DNA of 64,000 bases, taken from assembly GCF_900638305.1 (NCBI RefSeq), contig NZ_LR134506.1, positions 1,674,001-1,738,000 of the forward strand, given 5' to 3'. The DNA comes from Porphyromonas cangingivalis (GTDB lineage Bacteria; Bacteroidota; Bacteroidia; Bacteroidales; Porphyromonadaceae). Numbering within the stretch: position 1 is the first letter of the stretch; every line of letters starts with the position of its first letter. Positions 2,598 through 8,661 of the stretch are shown piece by piece. The position numbers and the translations under genes are program-made. Below the pieces are notes generated by a model that did no database searches, was not told the origin of the DNA, and saw only the letters and a list, made by a program, of their open reading frames with translations.

Positions 2598-3235
2598 TGG
2601 CAAAGGACGAGAAGAAGTGGTACATCGTCTGGTCGGGTCGTGAGCCCGGAGTCTATGAGACCTGGGACGAGTGCAAACGACAAGTGATCGGACAAAAGGG
2701 AGCGAGATACAAGTCCTTCAAGGGCATCTCTCGTGCCGAAGCCAAAAGCCTCCTCTTGGAGGGTGCCCCCGAAGTTGCCCGGACAAAGACTTCAAGCCCG
2801 ACCGCCATCCCCAAGGATCTACCTCCGATAGATCCCGATGCAATAGCCGTGGATGCCGCTTGTGCAGGCAACCCCGGAGTGATGGAGTACAGAGGGGTGA
2901 TGATAGAGACAGGGGATGTCATCTTCCATAGCCAAAAGTACCCCCGAGGCACGAACAACATAGGAGAGTTCCTCGCCATCGTGCATGCCCTCGCCCTCAT
3001 GGAGCAGAAGAGGCACATCGTCCCCCTATACTCCGACAGCAGGACTGCGATAGCGTGGGTGAAGAACAAAGCCGTCAAGACCAAGCTCCCTCGTGATGCC
3101 AAGACCGAGACCCTCTGGCAACACATCGAGAGAGCCCTCTCTTGGCTCAAGACCCACGACCTCTCGCCCTATACGATCCTGAAATGGGATACGGAGCACA
3201 GAGGAGAGATACCGGCAGACTTCGGCAGGAAATAA
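2597..3235 (+). CDS. Ribonuclease H with N-terminal viroplasmin-like domain
   Basis: Degrades the RNA strand of RNA-DNA hybrids. Residues about 6-45 (WYIVWSGREPGVYETW... YKSFKG) form the small hybrid-binding domain shared by eukaryotic RNase H1 and caulimovirus proteins; the catalytic domain follows. Active-site carboxylates are visible: Asp in AVDAACAGNPG, Glu in NNIGEFLAI, Asp in LYSDSRTA, and a terminal HRGEIPAD with the last His/Asp. Length (212) is usual for this Bacteroidota form. The ATG at 2597 overlaps the yaaA stop; the longer in-frame extension lies wholly inside yaaA and is rejected. Confidence 0.9.
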   Translation: MAKDEKKWYIVWSGREPGVYETWDECKRQVIGQKGARYKSFKGISRAEAKSLLLEGAPEVARTKTSSPTAIPKDLPPIDPDAIAVDAACAGNPGVMEYRGVMIETGDVIFHSQKYPRGTNNIGEFLAIVHALALMEQKRHIVPLYSDSRTAIAWVKNKAVKTKLPRDAKTETLWQHIERALSWLKTHDLSPYTILKWDTEHRGEIPADFGRK

Positions 3236-3460
3236 ATACGAGAAAGAGCCCGATAGGATGGGATCTTTTCAGATTAAATGACTACCTTGCGGTATCGGAC
3301 AGAGCTCATTGCAGATGGGGATATGTACGAAGTTTGAGACCGGCAGACAAGGGATGATATATCTCTGAAGTGGCTCTCTCCACGTACCATGGGTCAAGGA
3401 GCTTTTCACCACCCTCATCGGCACGCTCCACCGGTCTAACCCTTAGCTTTCGATACCGTC

Positions 3461-3928
3461 ATGAGTAAAAAGGTCAAACGTATATCTGATTTCCTATCTC
3501 ACACCGTGGTGGTGGGAATCCTTCTTTTCATCGCGATGTACTATCCCTCCATACCCGATCGGATACCCATCCACTACGATATGTATGGGCAGTGTGATGC
3601 CATGGGGGACAAGAGTAACCTCTTCATCGTACTTGGGATCATGGTCGGCGGATACATCCTGCTGGGGCTCATCAGCAGATACCCTCATAGATTCAACTAC
3701 CCCTTCGAGATCAAAGAGGCCAACAAGCTCCGGGTCTACTCCGTGGCGGCAGCCATGGTCAAAGCCCTGAGGGTCGTCTTCATGTTGACCTTTGCCTGCA
3801 TCACGATCTTCACGGCATTATCGGTGCGATTCCTCACCTCCGCTTTCACCCTCACTATCCTCATCTCGATCACCCTCATCCTCATCATCGGCAGTATCTG
3901 CATGAGTAAGGCCAACAAAGGACATTGA
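3461..3928 (+). CDS. DUF1648-type integral membrane protein
   Basis: A 155-residue protein with about four membrane helices. Near the N-terminus after the first helix it carries PSIPDRIPIHYDMYGQCDA, which matches the DUF1648 signature (P-x-x-IP-x-H-x-x-x-x-G). Such proteins resemble the membrane part of the Bacillus SdpI immunity protein, but no toxin gene is visible nearby. The 225 bases between it and the RNase H gene contain no recognisable gene or element. It ends shortly before a strong hairpin terminator. Function unknown. Confidence 0.7.
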   Translation: MSKKVKRISDFLSHTVVVGILLFIAMYYPSIPDRIPIHYDMYGQCDAMGDKSNLFIVLGIMVGGYILLGLISRYPHRFNYPFEIKEANKLRVYSVAAAMVKALRVVFMLTFACITIFTALSVRFLTSAFTLTILISITLILIIGSICMSKANKGH

Positions 3929-3995
3929 AAAAAAACCAAAGGTCATACAACAGTTCTGATCTCCTCACATCGAGGAGATAGAAAGAAAAACAAAC

Positions 3996-4038
3996 AAAAC
4001 AGGGTGTGTCAAATCTTTACTTTGACACACCCTGTTTT
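3996..4038. terminator. Bidirectional terminator between convergent genes
   Basis: AAAACAGGGTGTGTCAAA pairs perfectly with TTTGACACACCCTGTTTT around a 7-base loop. A-run on the left and T-run on the right let it serve the DUF1648 gene on + and the membrane gene on -. Confidence 0.85.
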
Positions 4039-4061
4039 GCGATCCGTCCGTCTCTCTCGGA

Positions 4062-4463
4062 TCACTTCTTGTCCTGCTTGTAGAAGATGATCGAAGGCAC
4101 CAACAGACCTACACCGCCGAAGAAAAGGACAAAGCCTAAAGTAAGGACTTCGATATTCTTCTCCACGAAGGAGGTATGGCTGTAACCCAACTGCTGTGAC
4201 ATGAAGTCGGCATAAGAGATGGCCAGCACACCCAAAAGCCCCACTGCCATACCGATGAGAAGCGAAGCGATCTTGATCCCCATCTTGTTGCTGAACATAT
4301 TACTCTTCGCAAAGAGGCTGGTATGGAGGCTCTGCGGATCGGGGCTTTCGCTGAGGTGGTCGATGAGCTTCATACGCTCGCTACGACGGATAAAGAGCTC
4401 GAATATCTTGTAGATAGTACCGAAGAAGAAGCCGATGCAGGCAACTGCCATTAATTCTTTCAT
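4062..4463 (-). CDS. DUF6249-like membrane protein, divergent from ECF sigma operon
   Basis: A 133-residue protein with an N-terminal helix (VACIGFFFGTIYKIFELFI), a short basic stretch RRSERMKLID, and two C-terminal helices (LLIGMAVGLLGVLAISY and LTLGFVLFFGGVGLLVPSIIF). This layout resembles DUF6249 proteins of Bacteroidota, which are often encoded beside ECF sigma factors. An ECF-type promoter (GTTACA/GACG on the + strand, read leftward) lies 56-81 bases upstream and is the mirror copy of the one before the sigma gene. I infer that it belongs to the sigma factor's own regulon. The biochemical role is unknown; it could be a stress-related membrane adaptor. Confidence 0.7.
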   Translation of the reverse strand: MKELMAVACIGFFFGTIYKIFELFIRRSERMKLIDHLSESPDPQSLHTSLFAKSNMFSNKMGIKIASLLIGMAVGLLGVLAISYADFMSQQLGYSHTSFVEKNIEVLTLGFVLFFGGVGLLVPSIIFYKQDKK

Positions 4464-4518
4464 GATTGTAAGTGTATTTTAAGTTTGTACATTGTTATCT
4501 GTCCGTTCTTACCCTTTA

Positions 4519-4544
4519 GACGCAAAAGAGCCGTGACGGTTACA
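4519..4544 (-). promoter_or_regulatory. ECF-type promoter of the DUF6249-like gene
   Basis: Read on the minus strand: TGTAAC (4544-4539), 16 bases, CGTC (4522-4519), followed by TAAAG. TGTAAC-N16-CGTC is the classic spacing of ECF sigma promoters. Confidence 0.75.
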
Positions 4545-4577
4545 CTTTTTTTGAGAAGAAAAATTATCTTCACAGAC

Positions 4578-4603
4578 TGTAACCGTCACGACTCTTTTGC
4601 GTC
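4578..4603 (+). promoter_or_regulatory. ECF-type autoregulatory promoter of the sigma operon
   Basis: TGTAAC at 4578-4583, 16-base spacer, CGTC at 4600-4603, then TAAAGGG. The predicted start lies about 15 bases before the sigma ATG at 4626, giving a very short leader. Confidence 0.78.
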
Positions 4604-4625
4604 TAAAGGGTAAAAGCACACCATA

Positions 4626-5180
4626 ATGGATCGACACCACCTACTGACAGATGAGGCTTGCATCGAGCGAGTGAAGGCCGGAGACACCGAGGCCTTCGGT
4701 CTCCTCGTGGGGCGTTACAACGACCGCCTCATCCGTATGGTGATGCCCCTTGTGAAAGAAAAAGCGGATGCCGAGGATCTCGTACAGGAAGTGATGATCA
4801 AGGCCTTCGAACACTTGGGGTCGTTTCATGGACAGTGTGCATTCTCAACATGGCTCTATCGGATCGCCTACAACCGTGCCGTGAGCGATATGAGACGAAA
4901 GTCGAAATACATCGAGATCCCCCTCGAAGAGGGTGTCATCTCCGATGAGGCGGATGACGAAGAGCAGGAGAGCCGACAGACTCCCGAAGCTCTCCAATGG
5001 GCACTCTCCCTCCTCGACCCCGGAGATCGGACTCTGCTATCGCTTTACTACGGCGAAGGGAAGTCGGTAGCCGAACTCTGTGTCATCACCGACCAATCCG
5101 CCTCGAACATCAAGATAAGACTCTTCCGCCTGCGTAACAAACTCAAAAAACTGATGTCCTCCTATGAAGAAAGACAGTAA
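4626..5180 (+). CDS. ECF-family RNA polymerase sigma-70 factor
   Basis: Directs RNA polymerase to a dedicated promoter class. The 184 residues contain sigma region 2 (about residues 12-95, with YNDRLIRMVMPLVKEKADAE, DLVQEVMIKAFEHL and STWLYRIAYNRAVSDMRRK) and region 4 (about 118-175, with LSLYYGEGKSVAELC and SASNIKIRLFRLRNKLKK, the helix-turn-helix). Length is normal. An ECF-type promoter sits directly upstream, so autoregulation is likely. The next gene, a membrane protein, overlaps by 17 bases and is the natural anti-sigma candidate. The stimulus sensed is unknown. Confidence 0.93.
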   Translation: MDRHHLLTDEACIERVKAGDTEAFGLLVGRYNDRLIRMVMPLVKEKADAEDLVQEVMIKAFEHLGSFHGQCAFSTWLYRIAYNRAVSDMRRKSKYIEIPLEEGVISDEADDEEQESRQTPEALQWALSLLDPGDRTLLSLYYGEGKSVAELCVITDQSASNIKIRLFRLRNKLKKLMSSYEERQ

Positions 5181-5562
5181 AACATACATACCTCACGAAA
5201 GCAGTCTCCGGGACGAAGGGTTGTCCCATCTCTTCGCTCGTCTCCCTGAACCTGAAGCCTCCCACCCCGAGGTGCGCCGAGCGATCATGTCCCGCATACG
5301 CGAGGTGGATGCTCGCCGTAAGCGTCGGGCAAAGACGCTCTTCTACATAGCCATAGGATTGGTCAGTGTCTTAGGACTCATCTTGTCGCTTGTCGTGATT
5401 CAAATGATCTTCCGCGACTCTCCTACCAAGGTGACAGACAGCTACACAGATCTGCTGGATGCCCTTTCGGGCGGTGCAGTGTATCTCGTGCCTTGTGTCT
5501 TCTTCTTTTACCTCTCCATCGACCTCTGGCTATCCCTCCGCAGGGACAAGTCTTCATCCTAA
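5164..5562 (+). CDS. Membrane partner of the ECF sigma factor (putative anti-sigma)
   Basis: A 132-residue protein with a cytoplasmic N-terminal part of about 58 charged residues (ARLPEPEASHPEVRRAIMSRI), then two membrane helices (about 59-83 and 103-122) and a short basic end. Its start lies inside the sigma gene, overlapping by 17 bases, which implies tight co-expression. Position and topology fit an anti-sigma factor that holds the sigma at the membrane. No zinc-binding HxxxCxxC motif is present, so it is not a ZAS-type anti-sigma. The role is inferred from context only. Confidence 0.6.
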   Translation: MKKDSKTYIPHESSLRDEGLSHLFARLPEPEASHPEVRRAIMSRIREVDARRKRRAKTLFYIAIGLVSVLGLILSLVVIQMIFRDSPTKVTDSYTDLLDALSGGAVYLVPCVFFFYLSIDLWLSLRRDKSSS

Positions 5563-5651
5563 GGATGAGGAGGGTAAATCCATTGACATTAAGGCTTATA
5601 AGCATCAACAACTGCTCGACTCTATCAAAAAAAACACAGAGATATCACTCG

Positions 5652-5731
5652 ACACATTCTGTCCCGGGACAGAATGTGTTCTGTCGCGCTCCGGAAAACA
5701 TTCTGTCGTACCACAGAAAGCTTTCCGGAGC
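5652..5731. repeat. Composite palindromic repeat, TTCTGTC/GACAGAA family
   Basis: Bases 5652-5679 are a perfect 28-bp palindrome (ACACATTCTGTCCC and its complement with no spacer). Next to it, GCTCCGGAAA (5688-5697) pairs with TTTCCGGAGC (5722-5731), enclosing a smaller palindrome TTCTGT/ACAGAA at 5701-5718. The TTCTGTC...ACAGAAAG module recurs before polA. It lies in the non-coding gap between the sigma operon and tsaE. Confidence 0.8.
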
Positions 5732-5754
5732 ATGACGTAATGCCATGAGATCGT

Positions 5755-5792
5755 CGGAGGGTGGAGGGAGGTGGAGGGAGGTGGAGGGAGGG
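5755..5792 (+). repeat. G-rich 10-bp tandem repeat
   Basis: Three direct copies of GTGGAGGGAG (5761-5790), flanked by further G tracts, give five GGG runs in under 40 bases on the + strand. This could fold as a G-quadruplex. It lies about 100 bases before tsaE; the remainder of the 5563-5890 gap shows no gene. Confidence 0.7.
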
Positions 5793-5890
5793 CAGTCCCC
5801 TGCCTCTTATCACAGAGGGGTTTAGTCGTTTTTAGGTCGATTTTCTTGTGTCAGTCGGGCTAATGAGTTAACTTAGTGTTTCTAAACGGA

Positions 5891-6322
5891 ATGAAAATGA
5901 AAGATATCGAAACCATTACTTATACCGAGGGTGAGCTCCCTTCTCTGGCCAAATCTTTGCTCGAAAAGTATGGCAAGGACAAGGTGTGGGCTTTCGATGC
6001 TCCGATGGGAGCCGGCAAGACGACCTTGATCAAAGAGTTGTGCCACACCCTCGGGGTGGAGGAGACGACTTCGAGCCCTACCTTTGCGATCATCAACGTG
6101 TACCAAAGCCCTGTAGGTGAGGTGTATCACTTCGACTGCTACCGCTTCGAGACCCTTGCGGATGCTTACAATATAGGTACGGAGGAGTACCTCGACAGTG
6201 GATCGTACTGCTTCGTCGAGTGGCCGGATGTGATCGCTCCGATCCTGCCTGACGATACGTTGTGGATCAAGATAGAGATCATCGACGGGATGACCCGTCG
6301 TCTCACCGTAAGGCAGGCCTGA
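5891..6322 (+). CDS. tsaE: tRNA threonylcarbamoyladenosine biosynthesis ATPase TsaE
   Basis: Works with TsaB and TsaD to make the t6A modification at position 37 of ANN-decoding tRNAs; ATP hydrolysis by TsaE resets the complex. Walker A is visible as GAGKTTLIKEL at about residues 40-50, then SSPTFAIINVY, HFDCYRF, GTEEYLDSG and FVEWPD, all family marks. Length is 143 residues from the ATG at 5891; an ATG two codons later (5897) and one at 5876 are also in frame, and the exact start is unresolved. The following small gene begins three bases after the stop, suggesting an operon through at least the TPR gene. Confidence 0.93.
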   Translation: MKMKDIETITYTEGELPSLAKSLLEKYGKDKVWAFDAPMGAGKTTLIKELCHTLGVEETTSSPTFAIINVYQSPVGEVYHFDCYRFETLADAYNIGTEEYLDSGSYCFVEWPDVIAPILPDDTLWIKIEIIDGMTRRLTVRQA

Positions 6323-6325
6323 GTC

Positions 6326-6565
6326 ATGTCTCCCGTTACGCTGATCCGTATCGTGCTTGTGGTGATGTTCATCCTGCCGGGGAGCATCTCTTTCGTTGCC
6401 GGAGTGACCGGTAGCCGTTGGTTCTTTTCGTCTCAGGGGACGAAGTACTTCCGAGGTACGTTCGGACTGATGGGTGCACGGATCTTCTACACCCTGCTGG
6501 GACTGCTCCTCATCGCTTGCGGTATCTATGGTCTGATCGATCCCGAACATTTGCTGAGACGATGA
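6326..6565 (+). CDS. Small two-helix membrane protein (Imm17-like)
   Basis: A 79-residue protein with an N-terminal helix (IRIVLVVMFILPGSISFVAGV) and a second near the C-terminus (IFYTLLGLLLIACGIYGLI), joined by a loop ending in GLMGARIFY. The G-x-x-GARxxY turn before helix two resembles the short immunity-17 family and similar uncharacterised Bacteroidota membrane proteins. No polymorphic toxin is visible nearby, so an immunity role is not supported by context. It overlaps the next gene by four bases (ATGA). Confidence 0.65.
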   Translation: MSPVTLIRIVLVVMFILPGSISFVAGVTGSRWFFSSQGTKYFRGTFGLMGARIFYTLLGLLLIACGIYGLIDPEHLLRR

Positions 6566-8661
6566 GATTTTCGACAAATTTACCGAACATCACCTTGACA
6601 ATGAAACACTTGAATCCCATACGCCACTTCATCCTCAACCATGAGATCTTTGGTGCGATACAGATGCTCGAAAAGGAGGCTGTCCCCGAAGTGAGGGATG
6701 CACTCTCGACAATAAAGGAAAACTACTCCTTCCTCTCCGGCTACTTCGTAAGCGGTGGGGACGATCCCGAGCGTGCACGCCTGCTCGATGAGATGAGGAT
6801 GACTCTGGAGGGGGTACGCTATCGCAACGAACTCCTCAAGATAGGCAAATACAGTTACTTCGTGCCCTCACATCACCTCGATGTGGAGCGGGAGGCATCG
6901 CCTGTGCTGGCTCTCGTACAGATGTTGCAGGAGGGTTATGAGCCGGAAGAAGCACCCGGATTTCAGGTGCTGGAGACGTTGTTTGACAAGCTGTGGCAGG
7001 CTCCTCATCTCTCCGATGAAGAGGTGTCGGCACTTCGTTACGTGATGACGGATGGGGAAGGGACTTTCGTGGCTCGTACATTGATCGGTGCGTTGTACCT
7101 CGGACTGTCGATAGGGATAGAGCCTTCGAAGTACGGACTCCTCTTGGAGGCTTGTCGCCACAGCGCACTTGCCGTGCGTGTCCCGGCTTTGGCGGCATTG
7201 CTCCTTGTCTCTGCACAAAATGCGGAAGAACTCCGCGAACTTCGTACCGAGCTTTGGGAGGAAGCTCAGTCTCTTGTCACCATCGCCGAGCCGGAAGAAC
7301 TGTTTGCGGCTTGCAATGCGATCTTCTCTTCGTATCGCACGGAGGAAGACCACCGTATATTCGTCGAACGCATAGAGCCCCAACTCAACGACATCGCACA
7401 GAAGATGAACCTACTCAGGGGAGATGACCTCTTCGAGCGTCTCAAGGATGCGGAAAAGACGGGCGAGGTCTCCGACATCGAACGAACGGTGCTGGATATA
7501 CAGGACGAATTGCCGAAGGATAGGGATCTCACATTTCATACGATACACAAGATGAAGGGCTATCCCTTCTTCGACTCGATACCAAGGTTTTTCCTCCCAT
7601 GGGACAAGCGACATCCCGTGTTGGACACGGAGAATGCCGCAGCGTTCGAGAAGCTACTGCCGATGACCTTCAGGGACGGCATGGTGTGCTCTTCGGACTG
7701 TTATTCGTTCGGGAGCATAGAGTACTGGAAGCAGTTCGTCGAGATGCTCGGGGGCAATCTGCCTGACCTCACAGGAGTGAAGATGGTGCAGGATGCGGAC
7801 TACTATGCCAAGGATTTTGTCTTCGGACTTTACCGTTTTTTGAAGTTGTCGTCATGGGGAGAGAAGTTCCCCGACCCATTCGGAGAAGGTCTTGAGATCC
7901 TGGACATCGATCTCATGGGGCGTGTGTACGACCTGCCGCACCGTCAGGTGTTGCACCGGCTTATCGAGCGACTCGTCACCCTCAAGGAGTACACCCTCGG
8001 CATATCGATGGCGAAGGGGCTCATGCCGACGACCGGTAGCGAAGATACGCATCTATTGAGGCTCCTCGCCGTGGCTCATTACAGAGCCGAAGACTACGAC
8101 AATGCGCGAGCAACACTCGAACAAATCGTGAAGACCGAGGGGCTCTCTTCGGCAATAGCTCTCCGTCTCGGAGCCCTTTATGAGCGTGCCGGAGAGTCGG
8201 AAAAGGCATTCGGGCTCTACGAACAGGCTTATGCCGACGCACCCGAAGATAAGGGGCTTGGCGATGTCTATGCCCGAAGACTGATCGAGAGGGGCTCTCA
8301 TGAAGAAGCATTGAAGGTGCTCTATGCCCTCTTCTTCGCCACAGATGGGAAAGAGCATGAGATCGTGTCGCTCTTGGCAGAGGCTCTACTCATGGCAGGC
8401 AAGGCACAAGAAGCTCTCGAAAGACTTTCGGAGCTGCCTTCAGAAGATGACAAAGTCTTCATCAACAAACAGATCGCACGGATCATCCTTGGCGAACGCT
8501 CAGGTGCACTCGCCGACCTCGCCCCTTGGTGCTCGGAGCATGATGACCGTCTGCACCGATTTTCGACACAAGTCAGACATGTCTTGCCTGCTCACGGCTG
8601 GACCAAAACCGATATTTCGCTCATCCTTGATGCACTGACAATAGCTATATCAAAACTATGA
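6562..8661 (+). CDS. Large TPR-repeat cytoplasmic protein
   Basis: A 699-residue protein without signal peptide or membrane helix, rich in Leu/Ala/Glu and helical throughout. The C-terminal third shows tetratricopeptide-like repeats (for example HYRAEDYDNARATLEQIVK, LGALYERAGESEKAFGLYEQA and EALLMAGKAQEALERLSEL), which usually form protein-binding superhelices. The N-terminal two thirds have no family I recognise but look conserved in style with unannotated Bacteroidota proteins. The ATG at 6562 overlaps the previous stop (ATGA); an alternative ATG at 6601 is also plausible. It overlaps the following lipoprotein gene by four bases. A scaffold role is inferred only from the repeats. Confidence 0.75.
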   Translation: MRFSTNLPNITLTMKHLNPIRHFILNHEIFGAIQMLEKEAVPEVRDALSTIKENYSFLSGYFVSGGDDPERARLLDEMRMTLEGVRYRNELLKIGKYSYFVPSHHLDVEREASPVLALVQMLQEGYEPEEAPGFQVLETLFDKLWQAPHLSDEEVSALRYVMTDGEGTFVARTLIGALYLGLSIGIEPSKYGLLLEACRHSALAVRVPALAALLLVSAQNAEELRELRTELWEEAQSLVTIAEPEELFAACNAIFSSYRTEEDHRIFVERIEPQLNDIAQKMNLLRGDDLFERLKDAEKTGEVSDIERTVLDIQDELPKDRDLTFHTIHKMKGYPFFDSIPRFFLPWDKRHPVLDTENAAAFEKLLPMTFRDGMVCSSDCYSFGSIEYWKQFVEMLGGNLPDLTGVKMVQDADYYAKDFVFGLYRFLKLSSWGEKFPDPFGEGLEILDIDLMGRVYDLPHRQVLHRLIERLVTLKEYTLGISMAKGLMPTTGSEDTHLLRLLAVAHYRAEDYDNARATLEQIVKTEGLSSAIALRLGALYERAGESEKAFGLYEQAYADAPEDKGLGDVYARRLIERGSHEEALKVLYALFFATDGKEHEIVSLLAEALLMAGKAQEALERLSELPSEDDKVFINKQIARIILGERSGALADLAPWCSEHDDRLHRFSTQVRHVLPAHGWTKTDISLILDALTIAISKL

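Follow-up and report, generated by a model that had tools for sequence, protein, structure and literature searches.

The locus between two divergent genes of Porphyromonas cangingivalis raises the question of why two outward-facing promoters should be near-perfect mirror images of one another, spacers included, and whether this likeness serves a function or records a past event. All coordinates refer to the window, that is, the whole stretch of 64,000 nucleotides that was analysed. The earlier note had described arms of 34 nt at 4511-4544 and 4578-4611, matching at 33 of 34 positions in inverted order. The match is as described, and the repeat extends two bases further in each arm, to 4509-4544 and 4578-4613, where 35 of 36 positions are complementary across a 33-nt loop. 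In a window-wide search this was the strongest long inverted repeat; other inverted pairs of at least 26 nt in the 64 kb were at most 81% complementary, and perfect ones were no longer than 20 nt. Folded as single-stranded DNA, the repeat reached -40.8 kcal/mol (z = -14), and none of 200 shuffled sequences folded as well.

The repeat and its flanking genes

Each arm, read outward, contains TGTAAC-N16-CGTC, as had been noted before, and continues with TAAAGGGTAA. In the left arm (4509-4544, minus strand), which faces the DUF6249 gene, the -35 element TGTAAC lies at 4544-4539 and the -10 element CGTC at 4522-4519; in the right arm (4578-4613, plus strand), which faces the sigma operon, they lie at 4578-4583 and 4600-4603. 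The AT-rich loop (4545-4577) is located between the two -35 elements. The start codon of the DUF6249-like gene (4463) is about 55 nt past its CGTC, and the start of the sigma factor gene (4626) 22 nt past its own.

The left arm precedes a gene for a DUF6249-like membrane protein of 133 amino acids (4062-4463, minus strand), whose match to Pfam PF19762 (E = 6e-7) is slightly below the curated cut-off. The right arm precedes a gene for an ECF sigma factor of 184 amino acids (4626-5180, plus strand; Sigma70_r2, E = 3e-15; Sigma70_r4_2, E = 3e-7; TIGR02937 above its cut-off). With Sigma70 regions 2 and 4 only and a length of about 180 amino acids, this protein has the make-up of an ECF sigma factor. 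The end of the sigma gene is overlapped by an open reading frame of 132 codons (5164-5562, plus strand). Profile searches gave no family match for its product, which has a charged, cytosolic N-terminus and two hydrophobic segments, and which, judged from its position, is likely a small anti-sigma factor.

At the exact 16-base spacing, TGTAAC-N16-CGTC occurs in the 2.4-Mb genome only at these two sites, and a longer, stricter consensus searched genome-wide matched only the same two with fewer than two mismatches. The genome search proposed earlier as a way of listing a regulon consequently returned this pair and nothing more at the exact spacing; the relaxed pattern TGTAAC-N15-18-CGTC gave 9 sites genome-wide versus 27 for the reversed pattern, so that a wider regulon showed no enrichment.

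Conservation of the promoter pair in Bacteroidota

We searched Bacteroidota genomes with a DNA pattern that carried no gene information, using the reversed pattern as control. The control was essentially absent from the survey. Among the distinct divergent pairs found by pattern, 81 of 83 are flanked by a sigma gene of this family on one side and a DUF6249 homologue on the other, the same gene pair for which two outward ECF promoters had been proposed in the window; when loci fetched via the sigma protein are added, the count is 122 of 125. In 120 of 122 loci the sigma gene has a small open reading frame, mostly of 110-150 amino acids, 3' of it. When the spacing was set to 17 bases, six more loci came up; over all 17-spaced loci the highest agreement is that of L226, whose two arms share 12 of 17 spacer positions, including a block of 7 that adjoins the -35 element.

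Both strands carry -35 and -10 elements with a fixed spacing, in front of the sigma gene and of its partner gene, and the comparison gives strong support to a pair of outward ECF sigma-type promoters in 4509-4613. We infer that both depend on this very sigma factor, and since the core promoters are now nearly identical, equal control of the two genes appears plausible here. Among the papers searched in full text for DUF6249, none was about this family; the fixed module of sigma factor, small putative anti-sigma factor and DUF6249 protein provides a regulatory context for an uncharacterised family.

Several loci depart from the usual arrangement. Compared with a usual gap of about 25-50 bp, the -35 boxes are only 2-5 bp apart in six of them (L037, L079, L112, L116, L137 and L144), where simultaneous binding of two polymerases would hardly be possible. 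In one genome (G885) the divergent promoter pair occurs twice, on contigs C38 and C45. In L036 and L038 (genomes G017 and G019) the sigma promoter is kept and the DUF6249 gene is still divergent, the intergenic region measures about 480 bp, and an outward promoter of this type was not seen on the DUF6249 side. L034 (genome G021), which is near-identical to P. macacae L070, retains the sigma gene with its promoter, but tyrosine-recombinase-like open reading frames stand in place of the DUF6249 side, which suggests a mobile-element insertion at the divergent site.

Arm identity across loci

The two arms were compared in 108 non-redundant pairs over 13 inner spacer positions. In 106 of these loci the two spacers resemble each other about as little as spacers paired at random (about 4 of 13). 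The present locus is one of the two outliers, with 12 of 13 positions alike. The other (L124) comes from a metagenome-assembled genome labelled Alistipes, and agrees at 13 of 13 inner positions and 16 of 16 positions of the whole spacer; it has 29 identical bases per arm, a 30-nt loop and the same gene order. No close relative that would reveal the direction of copying in L124 was found among 268 genomes of its family or in its two-species genus.

The comparison of the 108 pairs indicates that arm identity is not part of the promoter design. In locus pairs with sigma identity of at least 90%, spacers of the same arm have 11-12 of 13 positions in common and spacers of opposite arms 3.9; the two arms have separate histories, each being inherited on its own. 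A slow concerted evolution acting on the arms generally was considered and found no support: the arms are inherited separately, and mean spacer agreement with the two outliers omitted was 4.2 versus 4.0 for shuffled pairing (p = 0.08). Conserved arm identity, which the earlier note had proposed to look for in relatives and whose loss it had named as a refutation, is lost there as far as the sequences show, and the promoters are kept; this loss counts against a function of the identity, not against the promoters.

Probable direction of copying

The closest ortholog (L002, in genome G007) belongs to a second species of the genus; its sigma factor is 68% identical, and it keeps both promoters around a 34-nt loop, with different arms. 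The sigma-side arm of the present locus matches the opposite, DUF6249-side arm of L002 at 9 of 13 spacer and 12 of 12 downstream positions, versus 5 of 13 and 7 of 12 for its true counterpart, the sigma-side arm. The DUF6249-side arm matches its own counterpart in L002 at 8 of 13 and 11 of 12 positions, and its downstream TAAAGGGTAA is also found at the ortholog's same-side promoter. Of the 538 locus pairs whose sigma factors are at least 60% identical, only this one has a cross-arm agreement of at least 9. After CGT, sigma-side promoters of the outgroup loci (L002, L034 and L031) read CTATA or CTATG and DUF6249-side promoters (L002 and L031) read CTAAA; the present genome has CTAAA on both sides.

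Because of the cross-arm match to L002 and of CTAAA on both sides here, it is most likely that the DUF6249-side promoter overwrote the sigma-side promoter in this lineage, with the left arm as probable donor and the right arm as probable recipient. With one close relative and two outgroups as guides to the ancestral state, an imperfect repeat appears to have been made near-perfect by several changes in one arm that match the other arm. Measured against the one relative, 11 of the 14 informative sites favour this direction and 3 oppose it; the direction rests mainly on that relative, and the downstream TAAAGGG recurs in unrelated loci. In 10 of the 12 genomes searched in the genus no sigma ortholog was found at E <= 1e-30. 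The arms' spacers differ at one position, and because of this single mismatch the copying event would be either not brand-new or incomplete.

Origin of the arm identity

In our reading the locus is a conserved pair of divergent ECF promoters whose sigma-side member was overwritten with a copy of the DUF6249-side one, probably through template switching during replication; we give this reading a probability of roughly three in four. The pair would be self-controlled: sigma factor released from its anti-sigma factor would drive transcription outward on both sides, so that sigma factor, anti-sigma factor and DUF6249 protein rise together. Normally the two promoters are alike only in their -35 and -10 elements. 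Since these elements form short inverted repeats with one another, they could serve as seeds of about 8-10 bp at which a polymerase can switch template between the arms. A single switch by DNA polymerase would have transferred a copy of the DUF6249-side promoter to the sigma side, together with its spacer and first downstream bases. The palindrome would then be a mutational scar on functional promoters and not a separate element.

Homologous recombination between arms on sister chromosomes would convert one arm into the other with the same sequence outcome, and the arms are now 36 bp long. Before the event, however, identity between the arms was probably limited to blocks of about 8-10 bp, as judged from G007, and blocks of this size are short for homologous recombination. 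We regard this route as improbable, though it fares best among the alternatives, and given the short seeds template switching is the more likely mechanism.

It is less probable still that the 36-bp symmetry is itself functional, either bound by a dimeric regulator or forming a cruciform that tunes both promoters. The near-perfect arms, spacer included, and the strong predicted hairpin (z = -14) would fit such a role, but the symmetry is absent from the ortholog and from 106 of the 108 loci where these two genes flank the promoters. The additional regulator and the functional cruciform that had been suggested for the site are therefore not supported.

The earlier note had also offered recent duplication-inversion or gene conversion as the origin of the repeat. 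Conversion agrees with the cross-arm match to L002. Creation of the second promoter anew by duplication-inversion would account for nearly identical arms, but both promoters are already present, with the same spacing, in G007, G034 and other Bacteroidales, the arms in G007 and G034 being different, and we consider it very unlikely. The least credible alternative is convergent selection, in both arms, of the spacer that suits this sigma factor best: loci do have conserved bases at the start of the spacer (C, then T or G), but agreement between arms at the middle positions does not go beyond base composition in 106 loci, and each arm is inherited separately.

Two further candidates were set aside. 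A structured 5' RNA had been proposed, but except for its last few bases the repeat lies upstream of the expected transcription starts, and an Rfam search of 3000-7000 gave no match. An invertible promoter would have nothing to switch, and the loop has the same orientation in the present genome (G000) and in G007.

On the reading of copying by template switching, divergent ECF promoters may be a natural substrate for occasional promoter-to-promoter copying that resets the ratio of sigma factor to partner expression in one step, with at least two independent events, in a Porphyromonas-family and an Alistipes lineage; we give this generalisation an even chance. Copying of this kind suggests a way in which back-to-back promoters of one sigma factor could be made equal by a single mutational step. 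Its frequency can be counted (2 of 108 loci), and a donor arm, a recipient arm and a relative that serves as control are at hand.

Comparison with known systems

Replication template switching at short inverted repeats is a documented cause of multi-base changes and homogenises the arms (PMC8604942); quasipalindrome correction, or homogenisation of inverted-repeat arms, is also treated in PMC7202029 and PMC3820800. The present case resembles quasipalindrome correction in that one arm of a short imperfect repeat appears to have been rewritten from the other in one multi-base event, with short shared seeds and a short loop. The cases in PMC8604942 concern yeast coding genes with arms of up to 16 bp, whereas here two bacterial promoters and a 36-bp arm are involved. 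The spacer inversion seen in some of the yeast cases (PMC8604942) did not occur here.

ECF21 with Dma-type anti-sigma factors (Das1/Dma1, Das2/Dma2) and EcfO-Reo of Bacteroides/Phocaeicola (PMC13088901, PMC13114119) likewise have a Bacteroidota ECF sigma gene adjoining a membrane anti-sigma gene. However, Dma- and Reo-type anti-sigma factors span both membranes and have a C-terminal beta-barrel, whereas the adjoining putative anti-sigma factor here has 132 amino acids and two hydrophobic segments. The invertible promoters of Bacteroidales polysaccharide loci (PMC13114119) share with this locus inverted repeats at a promoter. In our case, in contrast, the arms themselves contain the promoters, which face outward, the loop was found in one orientation, constant between the two species, and no recombinase was present among the neighbouring genes examined.

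Other features of the neighbourhood

Between the DUF1648 and DUF6249 genes, a perfect 19-bp inverted repeat (3995-4039) may act as a terminator. Directly 3' of the putative anti-sigma gene, positions 5657-5742 contain overlapping imperfect palindromes with the units ACATTCTGTC, CGGAAAAC and CTTTCCGGAG. They are followed at 5760-5791 by 3.2 copies of a perfect 10-bp tandem repeat, GGTGGAGGGA, which is G-rich and possibly quadruplex-forming. Right after a TsaE gene, a small membrane open reading frame at 6326-6565 matches Imm17 (PF15562, E = 5e-11).
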